NCBI GenBank assembly: GCA_021821225.1
Contig: JAKACR010000144.1
Span: forward strand, 1-7,065
Source of the DNA: Bacillota bacterium
GTDB taxonomy: Bacteria; Bacillota; Bacilli; Alicyclobacillales; SLC66
Direction: 5' to 3'
Length of the DNA: 7,065 bases
Shown here: positions 5,575 through 5,777 of the stretch, piece after piece
Layout of the letters: every line of letters starts with the position of its first letter
Numbering within the stretch: the stretch's first letter is position 1
The notes under the pieces: model-generated
What the model saw: the letters and a program-made list of their open reading frames with translations, nothing else
The model's database searches: none
Told to the model about the DNA's origin: nothing
Program-made: the position numbers and the translations under genes

Positions 5575-5606
5575 TCTTGTTGCGGTGGCCGAGAGGAGGT
5601 GGTCGC

Positions 5607-5777
5607 ATGGGCGATGGCTGGTGGCGGCAAGAAGTGGCGGCGAATTCACAAAACAGGAGTGGTATGCATGCACAACAACCATCCGGATCGGGTGCTGACA
5701 GGCGACCGCACCACAGGAAAGCTTCACCTCGGCCACTATGTCGGGAGCCTCCAGAATCGCATTATGATGCAACATAA
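5607..5777 (+). CDS. Candidate Trp-codon leader ORF overlapping trpS out of frame
   Basis: After the T-box terminator there is a perfect AGGAGG (5594-5599), seven bases before ATG 5607. This ribosome site is better than that of trpS itself. The frame reads Met-Gly-Asp-Gly-Trp-Trp-Arg-Gln, with tandem TGG codons at 5619-5624, and stays open for 56 codons to TAA 5775-5777. It crosses the trpS ribosome site (5655-5659) and start (5668) in another frame. Beyond the first dozen codons it has no recognisable protein character, as expected if only its translation matters. The position resembles rtpLP of the B. subtilis anti-TRAP operon, a Trp-rich leader peptide placed downstream of a tRNA-Trp T-box. 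A ribosome stalled at the Trp codons would leave the trpS site free; one that keeps moving would cover it. Expression is inferred, not shown. The in-frame ATG 5614 of trpS could instead use this site, though with a 14-base spacing. Confidence 0.4.

Follow-up and report, generated by a model that had tools for sequence, protein, structure and literature searches.

Between a Trp T-box and a trpS2-type gene, the window (the whole stretch of DNA analysed, a bacterial contig of 7,065 nt) carries an ORF that is probably a translated leader peptide gene, predicted to sense charged tRNA-Trp and to act on translation of trpS2 in series with the T-box. Comparative evidence from related loci points to a conserved tandem sensor that is new for trpS as far as the literature was searched; the copy in the window stands on a broken gene.

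The T-box, leader ORF and trpS2 site in the window

The upstream part of the locus (Table 1) is an ordinary Trp T-box of family RF00230, and the leader ORF follows it, outside the family. The T-box match scores at or above the gathering threshold and shows the Trp specifier as well as AGGGTGGCACCGCGG and the terminator at 5541-5569; aligned with the T-boxes of two related loci, L104 and L105, it gave a mean column identity of 88% (three sequences). Behind the terminator, the preliminary description had reported AGGAGG seven bases before ATG 5607, TGG as codons 5 and 6 and an overlap with the ribosome site and start of trpS, all of which can be read directly in the sequence. The ORF begins with ATG (5607-5609), GGC GAT GGC, TGG (5619-5621) and TGG (5622-5624), and position 5777, proposed as the end of the feature, is the last base of its stop codon (5775-5777). 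The leader frame crosses the trpS Shine-Dalgarno sequence (SD, 5655-5659) and ATG 5668 in another frame and ends 107 nt inside trpS. As at rtpLP-type loci, a Trp-codon ORF with its own SD is positioned between the T-box terminator and the gene.

The motif AGGAGG-N5-9-RTG-N9-TGGTGG has a single occurrence in the window, and none of 200 dinucleotide shuffles contained it; a chance origin of the motif was ruled out by the shuffles together with its conservation in relatives. A terminator scan detected no terminator between 5607 and 5668, where a classical transcription attenuator would have one.

Table 1. Features of the trpS2 locus in the window, with the basis for each
Feature	Position	Strand	Basis
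Sigma-70-like promoter TTGACA-17-TATCAT, 5' of T-box	5240..5268	+	consensus scan, 11/12; not evidence of function
T-box leader RNA	5284..5557	+	Rfam RF00230, 94.1 bits (gathering 93), full model 1-219
T-box specifier codon TGG (Trp) in GAA-TGG-AC	5373..5375	+	read from Rfam alignment; same letters in L104 and L105
T-box terminator stem, followed by TTTTTGTCTTG	5541..5569	+	terminator scan, 12 pairs
Leader SD AGGAGG, 7 nt before ATG 5607	5594..5599	+	sequence
Trp leader ORF, 56 codons, out-of-frame overlap with trpS	5607..5777	+	sequence; kept in relatives
Tandem Trp codons TGG TGG, leader codons 5 and 6	5619..5624	+	sequence
SD of trpS fragment, AGGAG, 8 nt before ATG 5668	5655..5659	+	sequence
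trpS2-type N-terminal fragment, 88 codons, then TAA 5932-5934	5668..5934	+	Pfam PF00579 3-91/292; TIGR00233 3-84/328; PDB 1yi8/2a4m TrpRS

Conservation of the leader at trpS2 loci

We searched 59 genomes of the order of G228, 89 of the order of Paenibacillus L018 and 39 of the order of Brevibacillus L021, of which 10, 20 and 9, respectively, carry trpS2; TrpRS matches with less than 50% identity to the query were left out before counting. This protein-found set consists of 39 trpS2-type loci: 20 from Paenibacillales, 9 from Brevibacillales and 10 from an Alicyclobacillus-like order. Order names were inferred from the central genome (G006, genome of L018, Paenibacillus; G008, genome of L021, Brevibacillus; G586, genome of L033, Lutispora), and the order of G228 is called Alicyclobacillus-like from FixC similarity only. 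The nearest matches of the window FixC are near-copies (99% and 92%), followed by metagenome proteins of Alicyclobacillus sp. (81%) and Alicyclobacillaceae (80%).

The leader patterns used for counting demand an SD and TGG as codon 5, and a leader pattern also served to retrieve loci L134-L159, so that the motif and SD frequencies from these counts are partly built in. We therefore recounted these features on the 39 protein-found loci, requiring only RTG-N9-TGG and taking the candidate with the best SD. Counts of frames and stops are unaffected by the leader patterns.

A T-box match was present upstream of trpS2 at all 39 loci (32 at or above gathering, 7 below), and the leader was present after the T-box at every one of them. 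Most leaders are of the type M-x-D-G-W-W-(W); L110 reads M-D-G-D-W-W, and L173 and L198 have Glu in place of Asp. The start codon is ATG at 23 loci and GTG at 16. Codon 5 is TGG in 39/39, as demanded by the finder, and codon 6 is TGG in 37/39, the exceptions being L169 (W-G-W) and L113 (W-R). Codon 2 is E (18), D (15), S (5) or I (1), written as GAT, GAA, GAG, AGC and others; codon 3 is D in 36/39 (GAT 24, GAC 12), codon 4 is G in 38/39 (GGT 20, GGC 18), and codon 7 is W in 15. The Trp codons are almost always preceded by Asp-Gly, with Gly written only as GGT or GGC in 38/38 protein-found cases (L181 has GGA), and this pair may add a nascent-peptide effect.

The best leader SD agreed with AAGGAGGTG at 8-9 of 9 bases in 31 of the 39 loci and at 6-7 bases in 8. 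The weaker sites belong to 8 of the 9 Brevibacillales loci, a point noted against control by the leader.

When the leader pattern itself was used as the query, it matched in 8/398 Bacilli genomes and 24/198 Paenibacillales genomes (6 genomes in common; 26 distinct loci), and all 26 matches lay directly upstream of trpS2. The reversed pattern, run as a control, gave 0 matches. Leaders with W-x-W (L014, L015 and L169) were read by eye.

Two loci carry damaged trpS2 genes. At L113 (G427), trpS2 is internally deleted (81 codons from the match start) and the leader has TGG CGG, a decayed pair. At L203 (G609), from Brevibacillales, trpS2 contains an internal TGA; the leader is intact and the T-box match is weak (44.8 bits).

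The leader frame is kept open across the trpS2 start

Removal of duplicates reduced 89 leader loci to 71 distinct leaders. The absence of a stop before the downstream gene, pointed out in the preliminary description, holds for the window and for 66 of the 71, which run beyond the trpS start, but 5 leaders stop 30-37 nt before trpS; overrunning the start is thus not universal. The leader SD matched at 8-9 of 9 bases in 60/71 and the trpS SD at 6 or fewer in 55/71, many of the 71 having been chosen by SD.

Overlapping leaders have the same frame relative to trpS in 65 of 66 cases. Start-to-start distances vary among these 65 out-of-frame leaders (18 different values between 55 and 205 nt), and their stops lie 65-299 nt inside trpS. 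At its closest, the first Trp codon lies 43 nt before the start of trpS; with usual ribosome footprints, this spacing fits one stalled and one initiating ribosome. The exception, L138 (= L164, genome G013), is the sole leader in the trpS frame and would extend the protein by 22 residues (MDDGWWWRLECNQMLNNRRNFY) upstream of the trpS ATG. Such a leader would yield an extended TrpRS rather than block the gene, which counts against the proposed role of the leader.

To compare frames, stops were counted in 38 cluster representatives (one sequence each at 70% spacer identity). The leader frame contained 0 stops in 790 codons, as against 42 in 752 for the trpS frame and 41 in 752 for the third frame. 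The third frame would stop at most 60 nt from the start of the trpS match in 57/64 loci and the leader frame in 3/64, which makes passage across the trpS start without a nearby stop a conserved feature. Spacer differences in 14 close pairs were spread evenly over the codon positions (27, 27 and 31); the frame is thus kept and the peptide is not, the peptide drifting past the Trp codons. Differences within the motif in the 14 pairs (2, 0 and 5) were mostly at third positions. At the level of sequence, the conserved features are the start codon, the SD, the Trp codons, the frame and the absence of stops.

Selection for a long overlap inside trpS was considered and dropped. In trpS1-type genes, which have no such leader, the corresponding frame is open there in 19/20 loci (L114-L133), and an open frame beyond the trpS start is therefore no evidence of selection. 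Leaderless trpS2 genes, mostly from other groups, have an early stop in the leader-equivalent frame, 34/65 of them by +38.

The nucleotide conservation of GGAGGTGATGGCC-ATG-GA in Paenibacillales is strong, and this, together with the restriction of Gly codon 4 to GGT and GGC, would also be expected of an RNA or protein-binding element with no coding frame. We consider such an element very unlikely, because variation in the motif is mostly third-position, the frame and the avoidance of stops extend tens of codons beyond the motif, and no structure was found.

Production of an N-terminally extended TrpRS, either by a +1 frameshift at hungry Trp codons or from an upstream in-frame start (ATG 5614), appears extremely unlikely. 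The trpS frame of the window is indeed open upstream to 5614 and beyond, and a true in-frame fusion exists in one genome, but stops in the trpS frame lie upstream of trpS in 43 of 56 distinct overlapping loci, and TGA immediately precedes the trpS ATG in L104, L105 and L107. Based on the upstream stops in 43/56, extension or frameshifting was rejected.

RNA structure of the leaders

Over the 71 leaders, no conserved RNA structure was detected (mean z +0.23; z below -2 in 2/71). Simulation of a stalled ribosome left the mean accessibility of the trpS SD unchanged, at 0.594 versus 0.598 without the RNA under the ribosome; accessibility rose by more than 0.1 in 8/71 leaders and fell by more than 0.1 in 10/71. 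An RNA switch in the leader was ruled out, since there was neither excess stability nor a mean change of accessibility under the simulated stall. The lack of conserved structure fits a mechanism based on ribosome traffic.

Proposed control of trpS2 translation

We propose that the state of one tRNA is read twice. Uncharged tRNA-Trp would allow transcription to proceed past the T-box terminator, and ribosomes would load at the strong leader SD of the resulting message. With ample Trp-tRNA, these ribosomes would pass the Trp codons, keep reading out of frame through the SD and start codon of trpS, block initiation of trpS, and terminate inside trpS at a place too distant for restart. With scarce Trp-tRNA, ribosomes would stall at codons 5-7 and hold back their followers, leaving the trpS site free. 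Uncharged tRNA would thus cause the message to be made, and charged tRNA would cause it to be silenced. The direction of control (stalling frees, passage blocks) is what we infer from geometry and physiology; both stalling and occlusion are predicted from the layout of the leader. It weighs against the proposal that the T-box already senses the same tRNA and that the target is truncated in the window.

In a model of translational coupling, leader translation would activate trpS, the leader ribosomes opening or feeding the trpS site. The overlap and closeness of leader and trpS, and the one leader fused in frame to trpS, are what coupling would look like, but there is no structure to open, and the 65 out-of-frame leaders terminate deep inside trpS and not near its start. 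Coupling would also lower TrpRS when Trp-tRNA is scarce, in opposition to the T-box, and we regard it as unlikely.

The leader might instead keep ribosomes on the RNA up to trpS and so shield it from Rho or RNases, the Trp codons making the shielding conditional. A frame that stays open up to trpS at very different lengths is consistent with shielding, but stalling at the Trp codons would reduce trpS under Trp shortage and short leaders that stop early do exist; this role is quite unlikely.

The chances seem even that the locus represents a widespread module of Bacilli, in which a T-box decides whether an auxiliary TrpRS is transcribed and a stop-free, hairpin-free Trp leader represses translation by sending out-of-frame ribosomes over the start, a bacterial overlapping uORF serving as an amino acid sensor; the same design would serve anti-TRAP in some genomes, with the at operon as one case of a broader class. 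If true, this would be a hairpin-free form of translational attenuation, and its simple predictions can be tested in Paenibacillus and Brevibacillus cultures. The leader also matters for annotation, where it can readily be mistaken for part of trpS or overlooked.

The trpS2 gene is truncated in the window

The downstream gene, named trpS in the preliminary description, does match trpS2-type TrpRS, but only as an 88-codon remnant, which that description had missed. The fragment corresponds to the first quarter of TrpRS and is not a full-length functional enzyme; full-length relatives have 340 codons (L104, L105 and L107), most being about 320-345. No further trpS match was found in the window 3' of the TAA that follows codon 88. 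The controlled gene is therefore most likely broken in the organism of the window. An identical 88-aa protein is listed for 3 contigs, which makes a chance error less likely, one shared sample still being a possible source.

The module in the window is very probably a relic in which nothing useful is controlled, a reading compatible with control by the leader peptide in relatives. The relatives continue for about 250 more codons and have another frame next, and the listing of the same protein for 3 contigs agrees with a relic; the T-box, SD, Trp codons and open frame, all of them intact in the window, speak against it.

Some features of the surroundings were noted. In the window (5668-5960), trpS2 breaks off after codon 88 and the next gene is GNAT; the frame behind the full trpS of relatives is a different one (transporter-like by eye), not GNAT. 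At 3977-5193, an ArsR-like regulator (by eye) is divided between two frames near 4262-4282, and its second part continues into a DNA topology modulation-like protein (PRK08118); the frame is similar (61.6%) to one at L108, where a trpS2 relative is encoded. Short direct repeats of the type GATCGTCGATCCAGCGAT (by eye) lie at 6500-6570, in the interval that separates the GNAT gene from the dehydrogenase.

Distribution and phylogeny

The preliminary description had named, as evidence that would refute it, relatives that have the same T-box and lack the ATG, the SD or the TGG pair. In the three Bacilli orders the arrangement was retained (leader in 39/39, TGG pair in 37/39), in support of that description's interpretation, but elsewhere it is patchy. 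Among 22 genomes of the Lutispora order (Clostridia), a T-box match was obtained for 9 trpS2 loci of the nearer type (two of the matches below gathering), and a D-G-W-W leader is present at 4 of these 9; the leader is absent at the T-box trpS2 loci L005, L028, L046, L054 and L068. Upstream of trpS2 in L189, AGGAGG is followed by ATA GAG GGT GAT TGG TAG, by its look a decayed leader. In the order of G082, only distant TrpRS was found, in 2/4 genomes. No homologues were found in plasmids and viral contigs. At the trpS1-type loci L114-L133, an SD-led leader of the trpS2 kind was present in 0/20, and 8 of these loci have a T-box motif by pattern; L116 and L122 contain unrelated WW frames far upstream.

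A TrpRS tree was built with 112 of 151 proteins after removal of near-copies. One clade of 50 TrpRS (support 100/99) has the leader in 50/50; 14 of these rows had been fetched by the leader pattern and 36 by the TrpRS protein. The leader label needs 4 changes on the tree, 3 of them forced by well-supported branches, and the remaining three leader rows fall in a Clostridia-rich clade. Each of the 10 trpS2-bearing genomes in the order of G228 also contains another TrpRS match, at 33-39% identity (two of these matches lie in frames of only 94 and 196 codons), so trpS2 looks auxiliary there.

Comparison with other Trp leader systems

To our knowledge, tandem sensing of tRNA-Trp charge at transcription and translation is known from the anti-TRAP operon only. 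A conserved second case, for TrpRS in three Bacilli orders and some Clostridia, would make tandem sensing of tRNA-Trp a general design. The open-access literature searched contained no report of a T-box combined with a leader peptide at trpS, which does not prove absence.

The trpS2 module shares with classical trp operon attenuation a short leader in which tandem Trp codons follow a strong ribosome site; it differs in that no conserved hairpins lie downstream and control would act at the start of translation. Ribosome-mediated attenuation of trpS in Streptomyces was reportedly described by Vecchione and Sello in 2010. A candidate attenuator (Trp leader control) is reported for trpS2 of S. avermitilis in PMC1262725. 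The trpS2 loci studied here resemble these cases in having a candidate Trp leader control before a trpS gene, but in Streptomyces the readout is a terminator/antiterminator and there is no T-box, whereas here a T-box comes first and no terminator lies between leader and trpS.

In the at operon of B. subtilis, a Trp T-box controls transcription of rtpA, and complete translation of RtpLP, which has three Trp codons, prevents translation of rtpA (PMC2311275). For this operon, with T-box and rtpLP before rtpA, PMC11255114 cites Chen and Yanofsky 2003, 2004. The trpS2 loci likewise have a Trp T-box and then a short Trp-codon leader whose full translation would prevent that of the next gene, but the target is TrpRS and not anti-TRAP. 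rtpLP, for which the preliminary description gives a stop before rtpA, would end so that the finishing ribosome covers the next SD. At trpS2, by contrast, the leader is usually free of stops up to the gene and terminates 65-299 nt within it; in the window, the end of the leader does not cover the next SD, the frame crossing SD and start and ending at 5775.

The analogy to anti-TRAP drawn in the preliminary description was strengthened by rtpA loci. Among 11 further rtpA loci (L204-L214), a T-box motif was found at L205 and L214 only, and both have leaders with a strong SD (MESDWRRTENQ... and MGDDWWRFDLN..., respectively) whose overlap with rtpA keeps the relative frame seen at trpS2. The Brevibacillus rtpA locus L180 has no T-box motif and no TGGTGG. 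The L205 leader has only one Trp codon near its start, and it contains AAGGAGGTGATGGCCATGGA, which is also present in trpS2 leaders of Paenibacillus, for example L015.
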